From Myxococcales bacterium (GTDB taxonomy: Bacteria > Myxococcota_A > Polyangia > Polyangiales > Polyangiaceae): a stretch of 42,810 bases of DNA. Below the pieces are notes generated by a model. The model ran no database searches. It was given only the letters and a program-made list of their open reading frames with translations, and was not told the origin of the DNA. The DNA is taken from contig JANXVA010000112.1 of NCBI GenBank assembly GCA_025351875.1, positions 1 to 42,810 on the forward strand, in the 5' to 3' direction. Made by a program: the position numbers and the translations under genes. Every line of letters starts with the position of its first letter. The stretch's first letter is position 1. Positions 2,460 through 33,477 of this stretch are shown in pieces.

Positions 2460-3170
2460 TCAGGATGGCGGGAGGGAGGTCCGCGTGGCCGTGGCGACGA
2501 GCGTCGCCAGGCGCTCCATGACGATGGCGACGATGGCCAGCATTCCCATGGCACGCAAGGGCGCCAGCAGCGCATGCACCTGCGCGGGCGACGCTGCGCG
2601 CGCGACGAGCGCGAACGCGAGCTCGAGGACGACGGCCGCGGCGAGCAGCGGACCGCCGATCGCGATCGCGAGCCCGACGCCCGCGACGATGTCCGTCGCG
2701 GCGAGCAGCAGGGGATGGCCTGGCACCTGGTAGTGCGCGAGCGCTCCTGCGGCGCGTGCCGCTCCGCCGGTGGAGAGGAAGATGACGCTCGCGAGCAGCG
2801 AGAGGAGCACACCGAAGCTCGACGGTTTTCCCTCGACCGTCGCGAGCCCCGGGCCGTCGGGCGAGCCGCGCAGGACGTCGACGAGCCCGCCGGCCATCGT
2901 GGCCGCCCACAGCGGGATGGCGGCGGCGAGCGCCACCGGCAAGCCGAGAACGATCTGCTCGAGCGCCAGCACGAACCACGGCGTCGCGCGCTCGGCGACG
3001 ACCACCGGCACCAGCGCGGGATAGATCGCCGCGGCCAGGGCGAGCCCGAGCACGCCGCGCGCGGGGGCGGGCAGCGCCTTCAGCCCGAACGCCGGCACGA
3101 TGGTCACGACGGGCATGACACGCGCCCATGCCAGACCGATGGCTGCGAGGTCGTCGAGAGGAGCGAGCAA
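2460..3170 (-). CDS. FliR/SctT-like inner-membrane export protein, isolated
   Basis: Protein of 236 residues, nearly all hydrophobic, with five to six likely membrane segments. Hallmarks of the FliR/SctT (YscT/SpaR) family are visible: a Pro-bearing VVTIVPAFGLKALPAPARG segment near the N-terminus (about 20-40), a central block ending in LWAATMAGGLVDVLRG, and a C-terminal block LLAAAVVLELAFALVAR followed by an ALLAPLRAMGMLAIVAI helix, as in the FliR region before the last helix. FliR/SctT forms part of the export gate of flagella and type III secretion systems with FliP/SctR and FliQ/SctS. No such partner, FlhA/SctV, ATPase or needle gene is nearby, so it is either one piece of a scattered system or a leftover. 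The start is TTG at 3170, the first start codon in this frame; no clear ribosome binding site was seen. The family call is from sequence pattern only. Confidence 0.65.
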   Translation of the reverse strand: MLAPLDDLAAIGLAWARVMPVVTIVPAFGLKALPAPARGVLGLALAAAIYPALVPVVVAERATPWFVLALEQIVLGLPVALAAAIPLWAATMAGGLVDVLRGSPDGPGLATVEGKPSSFGVLLSLLASVIFLSTGGAARAAGALAHYQVPGHPLLLAATDIVAGVGLAIAIGGPLLAAAVVLELAFALVARAASPAQVHALLAPLRAMGMLAIVAIVMERLATLVATATRTSLPPS

Positions 3171-17400: not shown

Positions 17401-17745
17401 TACATCGACCATGCGTTCATCCGGCGGCTACGCGCCGGGAAGATCCGCGATCTCAACGACATCATCCACGCCCACACAGAGGGCACCGTTCAGCGCGTGC
17501 GACCGAAGGTCATGACCGTCTCGACGATGCTCTTCGGCCTGGTGCCGCTGCTCTGGGCACACGGCAGCGGAGCGGACGTGATGAAGCGGATCGCCGCGCC
17601 GATGGTCGGCGGCCTCCTCTCGAGCGCCTTTTTGACCCTCGAGCTGATCCCCGTCGTCTACACGTACTGGCGCTACGCCCAGCTCAAGCGCGCGCAGCGT
17701 ACCAACACTCCGCTCGCGGAGGTGTGCGGCATCGACCTCGGCTAG
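14476..17745 (+). CDS. cusA: Heavy-metal RND efflux pump, CusA type
   Basis: Protein of 1089 residues, full length for the HME-RND family, with twelve predicted membrane helices and two large periplasmic loops. The helix-4 signature reads GATVDAEIVMIEACHKK, the monovalent-metal (Cu/Ag) version rather than the CzcA type. Three methionines match the E. coli CusA metal-binding triad by context: Met568 in DILYMPTTLP, Met618 in PLSMVETIIQ and Met693 in RVDMLTTGV. The pump would use the proton gradient to export Cu(I)/Ag(I) from periplasm or cytoplasm through the adaptor and outer-membrane factor. No metal-responsive regulator (CueR, CusRS or CopY type) is adjacent. Its TAG stop lies in a CTAG that also provides the stop of the convergent gene. 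Confidence 0.95.
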   Translation: MIGWIIELSARYRWFVFLVYGALVVGACASAKRVQLDAIPDLSDPQVIIFTEYKGRSPTLVEDQITYPIASALLAAPHVTAVRGYSMFGMSFVYVLFDEGTDVYWARSRVLEYTSSLRAKLPAEVSPVLGPDATGIGWIYEYALVDRTGKHDLAELRTLQDFTLRYALESVPGVAQVASVGGYERQYQVTLDPAKLRAFGVQVEEVASAIRRSNGEVGGRVLEMSGREYFVRGRGYVENLGDLSRVAIRAGPDGTPVRVGDVGTVQFGGDIRRGLAELDGKGETVGAIVMARYGENALDVIARVKTRIGELGPALPPGVEIVPTYDRATLIERAIATLRGSLTEEAIVVSLVIILFLLHFRSALLPIISLPISVAMAFIPMYLFGIPATIMSLGGIAIAIGATVDAEIVMIEACHKKLEHAPPNLDSRSRAKLLHEAAKEVTPAIFFSLVIIALSFVPVFGLNGQGGRLFKPLAYTKTFVMLSAAVVSITLAPALRDLLVRGKIRTEKNHPVSRAIMAVYQPFVYVALRNPKTTLAIGLFALLSAIPAYLKLGSEFMPPLNEGDILYMPTTLPNLSIEEAKRQLERQDRIIAAFPEVKSVFGKIGRAESATDPAPLSMVETIIQLRPNHEWPMVHHERWFSGAPGIVKAPLQLLWPEDEHESWDELVAKMNAALQLPGWTNAWTMPIKTRVDMLTTGVRTPVGIKVFGSDLPSIEAAGTELETTLRGVPGTRSVLYERSLGGVYVDVVPNREALARYGMQVEDLNDVVSTAIGGEPVTTTVEGRRRFTVNVRYKEDFRATPERLREVLIPLRGGKGTAIPLGELADVRVVEGPPMLRDEAGLLVGYVYVDIEPSRDIGGYVDDAKVAVAAAQARGQVRLAPGMYLRWTGQYELLEGMRERMRILIPLALLSIAVLLYMQFRHLTEVLIVFLSIPFALVGSVWLLYLLDYRISTAVLVGVIALVGLAAQTGVVMIVYIDHAFIRRLRAGKIRDLNDIIHAHTEGTVQRVRPKVMTVSTMLFGLVPLLWAHGSGADVMKRIAAPMVGGLLSSAFLTLELIPVVYTYWRYAQLKRAQRTNTPLAEVCGIDLG

Positions 17746-20700
17746 GCCGCCGGTGGCTTCCGGGAGCCCGTTGGCCGGTCTCGCACCAGGAGCGGGGGTC
17801 CGTCGATCACGCGCGGCGAGCTCTCGCGGTCGTCGCGGAACGCCTCCACCCAGGCGGTCCACAGGACCACCTGACGCGCGAAGAGGAGGCGGTCGAGATC
17901 GAGCGATGCCGGCGGCTCGGAGAGCGGCTTGCCGCGCACGACCCCTCGAGTGGTACCCGTGCCGTGGAGCGCGTAGATGACCTCGCTCTCGTAGCCCTCG
18001 CCCGGCCAGACGACGAGCCCGTCTGCGGAGATGTCGTAGGCGGTCCCGGGGCCGAGCAGCGACTCGACCTGCTCGCGCACGATGTCGACGCCCGCGCGCT
18101 TGTAGAGGCCCGCGAGAGCAATCTCGAACGTCGCGTGTTGATCTGCAGGGAGCTGGTCGAGGAAGCCGGCGGTCGCGACCGACGCGACGAGCGAGCCCGA
18201 CTGCTCTTCGAACTGTAGCCAGGCGATCTCGGCAGCGACGCTCGGGCATGCGATCCCGATCCGGATCCTGTTCGACCCGACCTCGATCGCGTGGACCTCG
18301 AGCTCGCCGGCGCGCCAGCGCTTCGCTTGCCGCAGCAGGCCAATGAGCTCGCGCTCGACGAACGTCTCGATGGCGTGCTCCACCTCGTGGATCTGCTGGC
18401 GATAGACGTTCACCTTCGACGTCCGCCTCTTCGCCGCGCGCCGGAGCTTGGCGTAGAGCTTCGGCACGGTCCCCTGGTGGAAGCCGAGGACGAGGAGGCC
18501 GTTCATCGTCTCGCCGTGGTGCCCGATACGCACCGGGTCGAGCGTCTTCGAGCGGTTCTGGTCGTAGAGATTCCAGTTTGCCTTCAGCTCCCATACGAGA
18601 AACCCGAACACGCCAGGCAGCAGAAATACGGTGCTCCCCGCGATCGCGTTCGACGCGACCGGCCCCAGGGCCGCGAGCGGCGGCCGGATCGCCCCGAGGA
18701 TGGTCGGGCTCATCGGGAGGATGATCTTGTGCGAGACGGTGACCACCGGAAAATGCTTGATCGGGTTGACCTGCGGCTCGATGAGCAGGTTCACGTAGAT
18801 GCGAAGGAGGTACGTCGCGAAGAACCATACGACCGCGAGCGCACCCTTGCTCGCGAGCGAGAAGCGCGACTGACCTTCCTTGAAGGTCAGCCATTCGTCG
18901 ACCGTGTAGATGCCGCGCTCGACGCGCTCGACGAAGATGCGAAAGACGTCGACGATGAACGCGAACAGGCCGGGCAGCGCGCGGTGCGAGAGCTGGCGTA
19001 TTCGTCGGAGGACGAAATCGCTGAAGAGCTCCTCCGCATGGCGACCGAGCGGCGTCGCGAGGAACGACGCCGTGACCGCAGCGATGACCGCGGTCGCGAT
19101 CAGGGACGGCGTGCGGTCGAGCCCGGCACGCCGGGTCACGAGGTACACGAGGCCTGCAAGCACCAAGGGCTTCGTCACGAGCGAGACGAGCCGGCTGCGC
19201 GTGAGGGCGCGCACGGGGGGCCAGGAGAGAACCCAGGATGGAATGTCGATGAAGACGTTGCGAAGCACCTCGCCGACGCCTCGGGCCGCCGTGCGCGCCC
19301 CCTTGCGGAACGAGACGCTGTGGATCAAGCCGTAGAAGAAGAGAGCGAGCGCGATGAAAGACGGTGGACTGAGCAAGTGAACGTGCGGGTGCCCGAGCGC
19401 TCTGCCAATCGGGTGTGCGACGTGCTGGAGCCCTTCGAGCAGGACGAACGACAGAAGCACCGGCAGCGCGACGTGCAGGGTGATCACGCGTCCGAGCCAC
19501 GTCCCGAAGGCGATCGAGCTCACCTTTTGCAGGAAGCGTAGATAGATCTCGCCGCGCCGGTAGACGCCGTCGAGCCGCGTCGCGAGGAGCGCATCGGCGC
19601 GGAGAATCGGGTCGCCGAAGACGAGCTCCGCGGGCGCGAGCTTCGAGAGCTTGAGGTTGCTCCGCGAGAGGGCATCGCGCAGCGGGGACAGGCCGAGTGA
19701 GCCACGCGCGATCACGACATCGAGAATCTCCTCGCAGAGCTTCTCGCGGGCGACGCGCTCGGGCACGCTCTTCGGTCCGAGGCCCACCTCGTCGAGGACC
19801 TCCTCGAGGGCCGGCTTCACCGTCGCTCGCGCGTTGTCGATGGCACGCGAGATCGCCGCGCGGAAGACCTCCTCGAGCTTGGCTCGCTCCGTCTTGGAGA
19901 GCGCAGCCCGGTGCGAGCTGTCGAACGCGTGTCGCAGGTGCCGTGCCACACGCACGACGGCAACGGTCGGCAGCGGTCGTACGATCGGCCTCTTGAACAT
20001 GGAGGTCAGCCACGTCACGACGTCGACCGCGTTGCGGCGGCGCTCGGCATCGACGCAGGTCTTCTGGAGATCGTGGAGGACGCGAGCCTCGAGCGCGCGC
20101 GGGGAATCGGAGCGCGCCGCGGCCTCGGCAAGCGCCAGGATCACGTCGCGCCACGCTTCGGCCGACGGCGCCGGATGGTGTGCGCCCGGCGGTTCGGGCA
20201 GCGCGGCATGCAGGCGCGCCGCGAGCTCGTCGGCGTCGTCCGCGGCGTCCTCGCCGGCGCGCATCCGAACGAGCATCGAGCGAACGACGTTGCCCTTCCG
20301 TTTCGCATCGCTCGCGCTCGGATCGCGCTCGGTGCGCGAGGTCCGAGCCACCGGCGGCAGGCTCCGAGGTGCGAGCGACGCCAGCTTGAGCGTCGCCGCG
20401 GGCGAGAGCTCGGCGGCGCCGTCGGGCCTGCAGCCCTCGAGCAGAACGAGACCTTCCACGTCGAGCGCGAGGGTCTCCTCGATGGCCTTCGAGTCGCGGA
20501 TGCTCGGGAAGAACTTCTCCACGTGGTCAGGGTCGAAGTGTGAGAGCTCGAGGTGGAAGGCCGCGAACTCGATGTACGCCTCGCGATCGTCGCCGGACGA
20601 GAAGAGGAGGTTCTCCCCGCGGAGCACGGCTCGGATCTCGTCGAACTCCATCTGGCCGATGCGGTGGATCCGCTCGCGCACCGCGGCTTCGGTGAGTGTC

Positions 20701-20987
20701 CCGGCGCGCACGCGGTCCTCGAGGTGGTGATGGACGTGGCCGTGGAACGCTCGCCGCCACACCGCGCGGACGTCCTCGCGCTCGGGACGCGCCACGAGGA
20801 CGATCGTGGCGGGCAGATCGGCGGACTTCTTCCCGAGCTCGGACTCGCTCACGATCCGCAGGAGCGCCGCGCGTTCGATCACGCAGCAGTGACCGTGGGG
20901 GACCTGGAGACCGAACCCGGACAGACCGCGCTGCTGCTTCAGCACCCGTCGAACGAGCCGTGCGTCGGCGACGACGTGAGCGATCAC
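17742..20987 (-). CDS. Very large multi-pass membrane protein of unknown function
   Basis: Protein of 1081 residues with a GTG start. AAGGG lies six bases upstream, and the start sits in a perfect palindrome GATCACGTGATC at 20982-20993. About 480 N-terminal residues are soluble-looking, mixed charged helices. A membrane region (about 500-830) follows, with about seven hydrophobic segments, including VITLHVALPVLLSFVLLEG, FIALALFFYGLIHSV, LATPLG-bounded helices and AIAGSTVFLLPGVFGFLVWEL. A conserved-looking block reads NPIKHFPVVTVSHKIILPM. The last 230 residues are soluble and contain a His-rich start (MNGLLVLGFHQGTVPKLY). No catalytic motif, nucleotide-binding loop or transporter signature was recognised. 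It is convergent with cusA (overlapping stops) and is probably monocistronic. Confidence 0.8.
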   Translation of the reverse strand: MIAHVVADARLVRRVLKQQRGLSGFGLQVPHGHCCVIERAALLRIVSESELGKKSADLPATIVLVARPEREDVRAVWRRAFHGHVHHHLEDRVRAGTLTEAAVRERIHRIGQMEFDEIRAVLRGENLLFSSGDDREAYIEFAAFHLELSHFDPDHVEKFFPSIRDSKAIEETLALDVEGLVLLEGCRPDGAAELSPAATLKLASLAPRSLPPVARTSRTERDPSASDAKRKGNVVRSMLVRMRAGEDAADDADELAARLHAALPEPPGAHHPAPSAEAWRDVILALAEAAARSDSPRALEARVLHDLQKTCVDAERRRNAVDVVTWLTSMFKRPIVRPLPTVAVVRVARHLRHAFDSSHRAALSKTERAKLEEVFRAAISRAIDNARATVKPALEEVLDEVGLGPKSVPERVAREKLCEEILDVVIARGSLGLSPLRDALSRSNLKLSKLAPAELVFGDPILRADALLATRLDGVYRRGEIYLRFLQKVSSIAFGTWLGRVITLHVALPVLLSFVLLEGLQHVAHPIGRALGHPHVHLLSPPSFIALALFFYGLIHSVSFRKGARTAARGVGEVLRNVFIDIPSWVLSWPPVRALTRSRLVSLVTKPLVLAGLVYLVTRRAGLDRTPSLIATAVIAAVTASFLATPLGRHAEELFSDFVLRRIRQLSHRALPGLFAFIVDVFRIFVERVERGIYTVDEWLTFKEGQSRFSLASKGALAVVWFFATYLLRIYVNLLIEPQVNPIKHFPVVTVSHKIILPMSPTILGAIRPPLAALGPVASNAIAGSTVFLLPGVFGFLVWELKANWNLYDQNRSKTLDPVRIGHHGETMNGLLVLGFHQGTVPKLYAKLRRAAKRRTSKVNVYRQQIHEVEHAIETFVERELIGLLRQAKRWRAGELEVHAIEVGSNRIRIGIACPSVAAEIAWLQFEEQSGSLVASVATAGFLDQLPADQHATFEIALAGLYKRAGVDIVREQVESLLGPGTAYDISADGLVVWPGEGYESEVIYALHGTGTTRGVVRGKPLSEPPASLDLDRLLFARQVVLWTAWVEAFRDDRESSPRVIDGPPLLVRDRPTGSRKPPAA

Positions 20988-25401: not shown

Positions 25402-26940
25402 CTACGGGCCTGGGCCGGGCACGTGCTGAGAAGCCGGCGTGCCCGAGGCAGCCTCGATCGCGCATAGGACGGCGCGCGCCTTCGAGCGCGTCTCGTCCGC
25501 CTCTGCCTGGGGGTCGCTCGCCTCGACGATCCCTGCGCCGGCGGTGACCTCGAAGGTGTCGCCCTTCTCGACCATCGTCCGGATGGCGATCGCGAAGTCG
25601 AGGTCGGCCGTCGTGGCGACGTAGCCGATCGCGCCGCCGTAGATCCCGCGGGGCCTCGCCTCGAGCTCGCGGATGATCTGCATCGCGCGGATCTTGGGGG
25701 CGCCCGAGAGCGTGCCCGCCGGGAACGCGGCGCGCACGACCTCGAGCGGCGGCGTCGTCTCGGCGACCTTGCCGCGCACCTCGCTGACGATGTGCATCAC
25801 GTGGGAGAAGCGCTCGATCTCCATGCACTTCACGAGCTCGACGGAGCCAATCTGCGCGACCCGGCCCACGTCGTTGCGTCCGAGGTCGATGAGCATGACG
25901 TGCTCGGCTCGCTCCTTCGGATCGGCGAGGAGCTCCTCCTCCAGCGCGAGGTCCTCCTCGGGGGTCTTTCCGCGGCGCCTCGTTCCCGCGAGCGGACGCA
26001 CGGTCATCGTGCCGCCCTCGAGCCGGACCATCGTCTCCGGGCTCGCCCCCGCGATGCGTGTTCGGTGTGTCTCACCGGGCGCGGGCGGCAGATCGAGGAA
26101 GTACATGTACGGCGACGGATTGAGCAGCCTCATCGCGCGGTAGACGTCGAACGCGTCGCGCCCGGCGCGCGGCACCGAGAACGTGCGCGCGAGGACGATC
26201 TGGAACGCGTCGCCAGCGGCGATGTACTCCTTCGCCTGGTGAACGCGCGTCTTGTACTGCTCGTCGCTCAGGTCGACGGTGACATCGCGCGGGATGCGCG
26301 TGCGGTCGGGGGGCGTGAGGTTCGAGAGGCGCGGCGCGCGCGAGAGATCCTGGAGCGCGCGATCGATCGCCTCCTCCGAGGAGGCTGCGATCGTCACCGT
26401 CTGCGCGAGGGCGTCGAAGACGACGATTGTCGCCCCGCCGAGGAAGCGAGCAAGCGGTAGAAAGTGGCGATCCCACGTGGCCTGATCGCCGGGCGGCACC
26501 TTCTCGATGAGGTGCACGACGTCCCAGGCGAGGTACCCCACGTGGGCGGCTGCGAAGCGCGCGGCCTGGCTCTCGAGCTGCGCGGCGTCTCGGTCACGGC
26601 CTCCGATGGAACGAAAGAGCGGCTCGATCGCGCGCAGGGCGTCCTGCGCGTCGGCGAGAGAGAGAGGCTTCGGGCTCCCGGGTTCACGCGCGGGCGTCTT
26701 CAGGTCCGGGAGGACCGAGTCCGCGAGCACGCCGGAGCCGGGACGCACCTTCCACCCGGTGCGATCGAGGATGGCCTCGTACGTGGGCCGGTAGCCGAGG
26801 ATCGAGAAGCGGCCCCAGCGCTCTCCGCCGACGACGCTCTCGAGGAGGAACGAAGCGCCGTCTGCGTCGGCCGCGCGTAGCGCCGCGTAGGCGCCGACCG
26901 GCGTGAGCCCGTCGGCGACGAGCGTGCGGGTCGCGATCAA
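25402..26940 (-). CDS. trpE: Anthranilate synthase component I
   Basis: Protein of 512 residues, full length for TrpE. The N-terminal feedback-inhibition half contains the LLES element ([17 protein letters not shown]). The chorismate-binding half has the family motifs [53 protein letters not shown] and YGGAIGY. It makes anthranilate from chorismate with ammonia from a TrpG amidotransferase. No trpG, trpD or other trp gene is next to it, which is unusual. The start is TTG at 26940, overlapping the TGA of the upstream gene (TTGA at 26937-26940), giving a normal TrpE N-terminus; no in-frame ATG fits. It therefore appears translationally coupled to the Kal-Kce fusion. Confidence 0.93.
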
Positions 26941-28268
26941 GCCGGCGCCTTGGATAGCAGCATCGTGCGTGCGCGTGCCGGGTCGACCGGCGTGCGCCCG
27001 ATGCTCCGCGCGTACGCCGCGGCGCGCGCCACGAGCGGCGCGCTGCCCTCGGAGAGCACGCCCTTCGAGAGGTAGATGTTGTCCTCGAGCCCGACGCGCG
27101 CGTGCCCGCCGAGGCGCATCGCGAGCTCGGTCATCGGCTGCTGGAAGCGCCCGACGGCCGCGACGGCCCAGGAGGCGTCGCTCGGGACGAGGGACGCCAT
27201 GAAGCGGACGTTGCGCTCGCTGGCGCTGATCCCGCCCGGAACGCCGAGGACGAACTGGAAGTGGAGCGGGCGCTGGATGATGCCCTTCTCCGCGAGGGCG
27301 ATCGCCTCCTCGACGTGGCCGACCTCGTAGCACTCGAGCTCCGCGACGGCGCCCGATGCAACGAGGCGCACCGCGATGTCCTTGATCTGCGGGCGGGTGT
27401 TGACGAAGACGTCGTCGCCAAAGTTGAGCGAGCCACAGTTGAGGGTTGCCATCTCCGGCTTGCACGAGAGGGGGCCCACGCGCTCCTCGATCGACATGCC
27501 GACGGCGCCGCCCGTAGATACTTGTATGATGCAATCAGTCTTGGCGCGGATTCGCTCGATCGTCTCCGCGAAGCGGTCCTTCGACTGGGTCGGCGTACCG
27601 TCGTCCTCGCGCACGTGCAGGTGGATGACCGCGACCCCCGCGTCGCGGCAGCGCGCGGCCTCGTCGGCGATCTCCTGGGGCGTGATGGGCAGGTACTTCG
27701 TCTGCGCGCGGGTGATCTCGGCGCCGACGATCGCGGCGGTGAGGATGATCTCGGGCGCATGCGACTCGGTCGTCGGGAGCGTGCGCGGTCCGCCGCCCTC
27801 CGAGGGCGGGGTGACGACGGGGCCAGGCACCGCGGGGTGGGCCATGGGCAGCGCCGTCATGTAGAGGCCCTTCTCCCTGCGCTGCATCTCCTTCGGTGTG
27901 ACGCACGTACCCACCGCGCGACAGACGACGACGGGATCCGGGAGCACGTCGGCGGCGCTCGGCGCCATCCCTCGCTCGCGGACGTTGGCGATCACCTTGC
28001 GCGCCTCGAAGCGGATCTGACGGCTGGTATTGCCGATCTTCACGAGCTCGCCGGTCGCCTCGATGTAGTCGCCGGTGAAGACCGGCGCGAGGAACTCGAC
28101 GTTTTCGTAGGCGCGGAACAGCCCTTCGTCGCCGTCGAGGCGGATGAGGAGCTCGGTGGCGACATCGCCGAAGAGGGCGAGCATGCGTGCTCCGTCGACG
28201 AGCTCACCCGCGTAGTGCGCGTCGTGAGCTCCCATCCGGAGGCGGACCGTGACCTTCGTTCCGATCAT
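26937..28268 (-). CDS. Kal-Kce fusion: 3-aminobutyryl-CoA ammonia-lyase and 3-keto-5-aminohexanoate cleavage enzyme
   Basis: Protein of 443 residues. Residues 1-140 match Kal, a single-hotdog 3-aminobutyryl-CoA ammonia-lyase: [50 protein letters not shown] and [19 protein letters not shown] Pro/Gly linker (about 143-165) leads to a complete BKACE/DUF849 domain of the Kce type (172-443), with the zinc-binding HLHVR (His216, His218), the STGGAVGMS loop and the GLEDN motif with Glu395 as the probable third ligand. Kce converts 3-keto-5-aminohexanoate and acetyl-CoA to acetoacetate and 3-aminobutyryl-CoA; Kal then releases ammonia to give crotonyl-CoA. Both are steps of anaerobic lysine degradation and are usually separate proteins. 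The ATG at 28268 is preceded by AAGG and gives the normal Kal start. The stop overlaps trpE. Confidence 0.88.
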
Positions 28269-28424
28269 GATCGCCTTCGTACCAGAGTGGCGCGATGGGG
28301 CGAAGGGCACGTGCGACGACTCGTGCGCTAGTGTGGGGTCGTGGGTCACGACGGGGCCAGCAGACGTGGCGTGGTTGCCTCATCTTCGGGGGGGTAGGTT
28401 ACCCTTTCTCGAGGAGGGCTTCCC

Positions 28425-32124: not shown

Positions 32125-33477
32125 ATGACACCCGCCGATCCCCCGTCTGAAACGCTCCGCACGTCGTCAGCTCAGACCAGCACGATCCCGCTCGCGCCTG
32201 GTTCGTCGCGCAGCATCCTCAAGGAGTACGACTTCTTCAAGGTGGTCCAGGACTACCTCGATCGTGCTGCCAAGACGATCGACCTCCAGGAGTTCGTCCG
32301 CACGATCCTGAGCCAGCCGAAGAACGAGCTCATCATCAACTTCCCCGTGAAGATGGACAACGGTGAGGTCCGTCTCTTCAAGGGCTACCGCGTCCAGCAC
32401 AACAACCTGCTCGGGCCGTTCAAGGGCGGAATGCGCTTCCACCCGTCCGTCACGCTCGACGACGTGAAGGCGCTCGCTGCGATGATGACGTGGAAGTGCG
32501 CGCTCATGCGCATCCCGTACGGCGGCGGCAAGGGCGGCATCAAGTTCGACCCGCACTCGGTCTCGAAGGGCGAGCTGCAGCGCATCACGCGTCGCTTCAC
32601 GCACGCGCTCGGCGAGAACATCGGCCCCGAGTACGACATCCCCGCGCCGGACGTCGGCACGAACAGCCAGACGATGGCGTGGATGATGGACACGTATTCG
32701 AACATGGTCGGCGCTGCGAACAAGCAGACCGTCAAGGGCGTCGTCACCGGCAAGCCCGTCGCGAGCGGCGGCACGCTCGGTCGCGCAAAGGCCACCGGCC
32801 AGGGAGCCGTCTTCTGCATCGTCGAGTGGGCGAAGGAGAAGGCGTTCGACCTCGAGGGCTCGACGATGTCCGTGCAGGGCTTCGGCAACGTCGGCTCTCA
32901 CCTCGCCGTCATCCTCTCGCGGCTCGGTGTATCGACGGTCGCCGTCGGCGATCACTCGGGCTACCTCTTCAACCCCGAGGGCTTCAACGCCCACAAGCTC
33001 CAGGACTGGGTCGAGGAGCACGGCTCGATCGCGGGCTACCCCGGCGGCAAGCCGATCACGCGCGAGGAGTTCTTCAAGCAGAAGGTCGACATCTTCGCGC
33101 CGTGTGCGCTCGAGAATCAGATCGGCGAGAGCGAAGCGAAGTGGATCGACTGCAAGATGGTCGTCGAGGGCGCCAACGGACCGTGCAACCCGGCGGGCGA
33201 GAAGATCGTCCTCGAGCGCGGCATCGACATCATCCCCGACGTCCTCGCCAACTCCGGCGGCGTCACCGTCAGCTACTACGAGTGGGTGCAGAACAAGCGC
33301 TCGGAGAGCTGGACGGAGGAAGAGGTCGACCACAAGCTCGAGAAGGCGATGACCCGTGCGTACCGCGAGGTCGCCGACTTCGCGCGCCAGAACAAGGTCG
33401 ACCGCCGCATCGCCGCGTATGCGATCGCGCTGGCGCGGATCGAGGCGGTCTACAAGGAGCGCGAGATCTTCCCGTGA
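32125..33477 (+). CDS. gdhA: Glutamate dehydrogenase
   Basis: Protein of 450 residues, somewhat longer at the N-terminus than the family core because of a Ser/Thr/Pro-rich leader of about 30 residues. The Glu/Leu/Phe/Val dehydrogenase fold is complete: GPFKGGMRFHPSVT, the catalytic Lys in IPYGGGKGGI, the DVGTN motif (PAPDVGTNSQTM), TGKPVASGGTLGR, and the nucleotide-binding VQGFGNVGSH. It interconverts glutamate and 2-oxoglutarate with ammonia. Coenzyme preference cannot be fixed from what I can see. The ATG at 32125 has AAGG eight bases upstream. Region upstream contains a symmetric operator-like site. Confidence 0.95.
   Translation: MTPADPPSETLRTSSAQTSTIPLAPGSSRSILKEYDFFKVVQDYLDRAAKTIDLQEFVRTILSQPKNELIINFPVKMDNGEVRLFKGYRVQHNNLLGPFKGGMRFHPSVTLDDVKALAAMMTWKCALMRIPYGGGKGGIKFDPHSVSKGELQRITRRFTHALGENIGPEYDIPAPDVGTNSQTMAWMMDTYSNMVGAANKQTVKGVVTGKPVASGGTLGRAKATGQGAVFCIVEWAKEKAFDLEGSTMSVQGFGNVGSHLAVILSRLGVSTVAVGDHSGYLFNPEGFNAHKLQDWVEEHGSIAGYPGGKPITREEFFKQKVDIFAPCALENQIGESEAKWIDCKMVVEGANGPCNPAGEKIVLERGIDIIPDVLANSGGVTVSYYEWVQNKRSESWTEEEVDHKLEKAMTRAYREVADFARQNKVDRRIAAYAIALARIEAVYKEREIFP

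Follow-up and report, generated by a model that had tools for sequence, protein, structure and literature searches.

Fused Kal-Kce protein of a myxobacterium close to Labilithrix, lysine-pathway genes in the same genome, and a sister clade with replaced active-site positions

The beta-alanyl-CoA:ammonia lyase catalyzes the same type of reaction as the 3-aminobutyryl-CoA ammonia-lyase, Kal; its substrate differs from 3-aminobutyryl-CoA in having no such methyl group. A lysine degradation pathway in which Kal and the 3-keto-5-aminohexanoate cleavage enzyme, Kce, are separate proteins is outlined in PMC8473912. In Candidatus Cloacamonas acidaminovorans the aminotransferase Kat replaces Kal, according to an excerpt of PMC3149608. 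The Kal-Kce architecture is not new, i.e., a curated family (NCBIfam NF052389) exists, and the protein described here is a further member of it. Among the papers listed by a literature search that reached few subscription papers, no title or abstract opening names a Kal-Kce fusion.

The stretch of DNA analyzed, termed the window, is 42,810 nt, and its host is a myxobacterium close to Labilithrix (Polyangia). The fusion gene starts with an ATG at position 28268 and reads on the minus strand to the stop codon at 26937–26939, with no internal stop. The first-pass annotation had placed a single 443-residue chain at 26937–28268, which translation confirms; it left the strand unstated, and on the plus strand the corresponding frame is interrupted by a stop. 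An alternative start, a GTG at 28349, would extend the protein to 470 aa, but the ATG start of the 443-aa protein aligns with the starts of several relatives. The features of the window discussed here are the following.

26937..28268, minus strand: kal-kce fusion gene, predicted bifunctional 3-aminobutyryl-CoA ammonia-lyase / 3-keto-5-aminohexanoate cleavage enzyme (translation; NF052389, 819.8 bits)
27876..28268, minus strand: Kal hotdog domain, residues 1–131 (NF052388, 181.9 bits, cut-off 160; 43% identity to 4mtu, TM 0.85 by target length)
27768..27869, minus strand: flexible linker, residues 134–167 (pLDDT below 50; length 11–51 in relatives)
26940..27755, minus strand: Kce/BKACE TIM-barrel domain, residues 172–443 (PF05853, 316.2 bits; 52% identity to 2y7e, TM 0.95 by target length)
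25402..26940, minus strand: trpE-like gene (PF00425, 301.8 bits; best NCBIfam match TIGR00564, 436.9 bits, under the cut-off of 517.7)
32125–33477, plus strand: Glu/Leu/Phe/Val dehydrogenase gene

The domain borders first proposed were close: 172–443 holds for Kce, and the Kal part, given as 1–140, ends near residue 131.

A search of titled genome records for Kal loci gave at least 592 matching stretches and at least 515 confirmed relatives, of which the best 80 were kept. These 80 comprise 42 fused loci, many of them from metagenome-assembled genomes, 24 loci with separate kal and kce, and 14 with kal only, some at contig ends. The host genome is a draft in 805 contigs, which would fit a joint made by a frame or assembly error. 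The recurrence of the fused frame in 42 of the best 80 loci, including the complete chromosomes of Sorangium cellulosum and Minicystis rosea, leaves that reading practically no probability, and it was rejected on the ground that independent complete chromosomes carry the identical fused frame.

The assignment of the two domains to Kal and Kce, made in the first-pass annotation without database searches, is borne out by family models and by fold. Pfam finds BKACE (PF05853) at residues 174–437 and 4HBT at residues 26–90 (27.7 bits). The fusion model NF052389, with a cut-off of 725, aligns over profile positions 1–438 of 440 with residues 2 to 441. The Kce equivalog model NF052387 gives 366.3 bits, just below its cut-off of 382; an unfused Archangium Kce scores 381.3 on the same model, which indicates that this cut-off is tight for myxobacteria. 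The AlphaFold model of the fusion has a mean pLDDT of 88.5 and a pTM of 0.63. Among the Foldseek matches listed for the C-terminal domain, the closest is the Kce structure 2y7e, and characterized Kce structures show 50–52% identity compared with at most 36% for other BKACE-family structures; these matches gave no sign of a BKACE subgroup with unrelated substrates. A second BKACE protein of the same genome (contig C778, L002) has no fusion partner, and its 241.7 bits on the Kce model fall short of the cut-off.

The Pfam label 4HBT could mean that the domain joined to BKACE is an acyl-CoA thioesterase of the usual kind, and a plain thioesterase lacking Kal residues was looked for. The closest fold to the N-terminal domain among the matches listed is the beta-alanyl-CoA:ammonia lyase 4mtu at 43% identity, whereas thioesterases among the 50 matches listed show 15–20% identity with TM values of 0.55–0.78. 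The domain also aligns with Acl2 across 130 residues, and scores 181.9 bits on the Kal equivalog model NF052388, over the cut-off of 160. A plain hotdog thioesterase is very improbable and was rejected, as the kinship is to 4mtu and not to acyl-CoA hydrolases.

An alignment to 2y7d places residues E184, H216, H218, Y314, E395 and D396 at CcaKce E14, H46, H48, Y145, E230 and D231, and all six are identical. This numbering supposes a six-residue tag in the 2y7d chain, and we take E14, H46, H48, E230 and D231 to be zinc-ligand and catalytic positions. Y145 is thought to be catalytic, according to part of PMC12871164. In keeping with the first-pass annotation, which saw no obvious loss of key residues, the protein also passes a check at 12 sites (see below). 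By its sequence, the window protein is an intact Kal hotdog domain joined to an intact Kce/BKACE domain, with the active-site positions retained.

The fused arrangement can be compared with loci where the two genes are apart. In Archangium and Myxococcaceae kal and kce are separate and mostly downstream of kamD. The order kamD-kamE-kal-kce in close proximity is seen in the unfused relatives G041 and Archangium L136, and kamD-kdd-kal-kce in L129. In L127, L128 and L155 kal and kce overlap by 4 nt. By analogy with these other myxobacteria, the fusion most likely arose when a neighboring kal and kce with overlapping ends were joined in frame.

The Kce tree (59 of 84 rows) brings all 26 fused rows used, together with one split Sandaracinus row, into one group with support of 100/98. 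This tree is read most economically as a single fusion within the Polyangia lineage, which is also the most likely course, and one later split; Polyangia includes both Labilithrix and Sandaracinus. The Kal tree (58 of 83 rows) has poor resolution and fails to recover a single fused clade. Its best version requires three changes, and supported branches force two or more, so a single origin is not confirmed by Kal. Fused loci of other families of the class (L178, L181 and L184) have shorter linkers of about 12 to 20 residues. Independent fusions in other classes were considered on the basis of equal Kal and Kce open-frame lengths and rejected: the 16 stretches concerned have 13 separate pairs and three Kce only. 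Fourteen of these are from the phylum outside the class (13 with separate kal and kce, one with Kce only and no fusions), and the two inside the class, G247 and G096, have Kce only. The split genes of the Sandaracinus genome G041 (L126) may represent a fusion undone by insertion. Between its kal and kce, this metagenome-assembled genome has an open frame of 315 aa that gives no Pfam match (L080:4527–5474).

The linker, measured from the last Kal motif to the first Kce strand, varies from 11 to 51 residues with a median of 37.5 (34 of 36 fused rows). Mean conservation is 0.83 for Kal, 0.58 for the linker and 0.80 for Kce. A linker that is disordered in the model and variable in length favors tethering and argues against a rigid tunnel between Kce and Kal. 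Channelling of 3-aminobutyryl-CoA, which the first-pass annotation took the fusion to suggest, may occur.

The fusion may also be neutral, with the same two activities in independent domains, no channelling and at most a fixed 1:1 ratio. The variable disordered linker and the pTM of 0.63, the unfused and overlapping neighbors in other myxobacteria, and what looks like a later split, with a further frame lying between the two genes, are all consistent with this. Retention of the fused form across many genera of the class, with both domains conserved, argues against neutrality. We give neutrality an even chance; it differs from the explanation preferred below only in the role of the tether, and the chemistry is compatible with both.

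The first-pass annotation noted that the other genes of the pathway are absent nearby and proposed that the fusion may serve another route. This is not supported, as kamD, kamE and kdd are found in the same genome on other contigs. KamD is encoded on contig C253 (764 bits to PF09043; NF052384, 730.8 bits, cut-off 600). KamE immediately adjoins it and is assigned from its dimerization domain only (PF16554, 89.8 bits). Kdd is on contig C425, with 215.4 bits on NF052381 (cut-off 200), a model identified through a neighbor gene in L129. NF052386 had been tried as the Kdd model and was wrong, since it represents the KamB reactivase; a KamB search with it had no discriminating power, with matches in none of 58 genomes and none of 14 controls.

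The homologs elsewhere in the genome that the first-pass annotation thought worth looking for are thus present for kdd and are less certain for kamA. Two KamA-family candidates for the lysine 2,3-aminomutase score 388 and 261.7 bits on the AblA model, and no protein of the genome is above its cut-off of 525.4. Two aspartates kept in both are, we assume from an alignment to 2a5h, the substrate-binding D293 and D330. Both kinds of candidate are also present in genomes without kamD, so that a phylogenetic profile singled out neither. Contig C310 (L070:186–2162) encodes a 658-aa radical SAM protein of the KamA family with a long extra N-terminal part; AblA-model matches of this type also occur in relatives without kamD.

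The presence of these genes was compared in 58 genomes. Intact Kal plus Kce, either fused or split (G041), is found in 22 and is missing from 36. Genomes were first labeled intact by visual inspection, and the label was then verified at 12 sites in all 22: no genome differs at 11 of the sites, among them H15, H18, Y19, E184, H216, H218, Y314 and E395, whereas G012 and G027 have E at D16. The gene kamD is present in 20 of the 22 genomes with intact Kal plus Kce versus 1 of the 36 without, kamE in 21 versus 1, and kdd in 17 versus 1. When only genomes at least 90% complete are taken, the values are 16/16 for kamD, 16/16 for kamE and 14/16 for kdd, against 1/31 for each. Fisher p values for the co-occurrence range from 2e-9 to 1e-13, in a test that ignores shared descent.

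The exceptions are as follows. Despite intact Kal plus Kce, searches found neither kamD nor kamE in G018 (83% complete) and no kamD in G028 (81% complete). The kdd search gave no match in G005, G007, G012, G014 and G027; two of these, G014 (96% complete) and G027 (97%), have the fusion and kamDE. The sole exception among the 36 is G020 (95% complete), which has kamDE and kdd without an intact Kal-Kce.

The co-occurrence bears on the proposal of another route, in which the BKACE domain would use some other beta-keto acid, with the hotdog domain acting on the resulting CoA product. The BKACE family is promiscuous, according to part of PMC4922564, the Kce half is just under its equivalog cut-off, and for the KamA step both candidates are below the AblA cut-off. 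Set against this are the greater identity to Kce than to other solved BKACE-family structures among the matches listed, the low scores on other equivalog models (219.9 with a cut-off of 430, and 205 with a cut-off of 350), and the association with kamDE and kdd. After the search of this genome and its relatives for pathway genes, a different route is judged unlikely.

The explanation that best fits the results as a whole, and that we hold to be very probably correct, is a bifunctional enzyme of lysine degradation via 3,5-diaminohexanoate, with tethered domains and a single fusion in Polyangia. The substrate 3-keto-5-aminohexanoate would come from KamDE and Kdd, whose genes lie on other contigs. 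The zinc-dependent C-terminal Kce domain would convert it with acetyl-CoA to acetoacetate and 3-aminobutyryl-CoA, and the N-terminal Kal domain would release ammonia from the latter to give crotonyl-CoA, which would reach acetyl-CoA through beta-oxidation. The flexible linker would hold Kal and Kce near each other with no fixed tunnel, in a chain that presumably goes back to adjacent, overlapping genes joined in frame once in the Polyangia lineage. We infer the catalysis, the direction of flux, the first step by KamA and any gain from proximity.

The trpE-like gene starts with a TTG (26940) that overlaps the kal-kce stop (TTGA); from 10 codons before to 40 after, no other start codon occurs. 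The arrangement suggests that the two genes are probably cotranscribed, and we know of no metabolic link between them. Gene neighborhoods were compared in 32 other loci with crude gene calling; L091 and L112 repeat L054 and L056, and values without these two repeats are given in parentheses. The trpE-like gene is near the fusion in 6/32 loci (6/30), the Glu/Leu/Phe/Val dehydrogenase gene in 19/32 (18/30), a CDP-diglyceride-synthase-like gene, as we presume it to be from its sequence, in 19/32 (18/30), and undecaprenyl diphosphate synthase in 14/32 (14/30). The last three are not read as pathway partners. Elsewhere in the window, a reading frame of 1081 aa shows strong codon bias and has no Pfam match (17742–20987, minus strand), and positions 2460–3170 (minus strand) encode a bacterial export family 1 protein (PF01311, 72 bits), presumably of the FliR/SctT kind.

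Four genomes of the same family as the window genome have divergent full-length Kal-Kce fusions.

L064:7752–9179: divergent fusion, genome G033
L066:8215–9672: divergent fusion, genome G026
L199:4367–5887: divergent fusion, genome G025
L210:1459–2976: divergent fusion, genome G324

The Kce tree unites them with support of 100/100, on a long branch (1.24). All four carry other residues at H15, H18 and Y19 of Kal and at E184, H218 and E395 of Kce; H216 is also lost in G025 and G026, and Y314 in G033 and G324. D35, E39 and D396 are retained in all four, and the proteins bear an acidic proline-rich C-terminal tail. A search for kamD, kamE and kdd in G025, G026 and G033, three of the four genomes, found none; the G324 genome is 73% complete. 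The same three genomes have neighbor gene families in common with the loci of Sorangium and Polyangium, which points to decay in place.

The Nei–Gojobori comparison of G033 and G324 gives a dN of 0.211 and a dS of 1.08, a ratio of about 0.2 from one pair with dS near saturation. An intact pair, L113 and L117, has values of 0.131 and 0.58, near that ratio. The divergent fusions are thus apparently under purifying selection, as judged from substitution patterns. The simplest reading is that the lysine pathway was lost and the protein then retained for another task. More tentatively, and with somewhat less than an even chance, the clade may represent a non-catalytic two-domain protein under purifying selection, perhaps a CoA-ester binder or a scaffold, with its acidic proline-rich tail. 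It amounts to a natural experiment, in that the absence of kamDE and kdd accompanies active-site loss in Kal and Kce (three genomes).

The fusion as such is no surprise; what merits further attention is the pathway's occurrence in this group and the decayed clade. The lysine "fermentation" route is thereby placed in a large myxobacterial group, where its genes lie on separate contigs and can therefore be missed by searches based on gene clusters. The natural linker range in 34 proteins offers a ready test of whether tethering aids flux.

Among known systems, Clostridia, Bacteroidota and others have Kal and Kce as separate proteins, with the same two activities by family and the same kal-then-kce order. 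These are two chains whose genes, in several loci, cluster with kamD or kdd, whereas the window has one chain with its partners on other contigs. The Kce of Candidatus Cloacamonas acidaminovorans (2y7d–2y7g) is 50–52% identical to the window Kce, with TM values of 0.91–0.95 by target length, and shares the active-site positions; it has no hotdog domain, unlike the fusion. The beta-alanyl-CoA:ammonia lyase of Clostridium propionicum (4mtu, 4mzq) has the same hotdog fold as the window Kal, with 43% identity, but is not fused. The closest system is the NCBIfam family NF052389 itself, with the same domain order and length as the window protein and nothing essential that is different.
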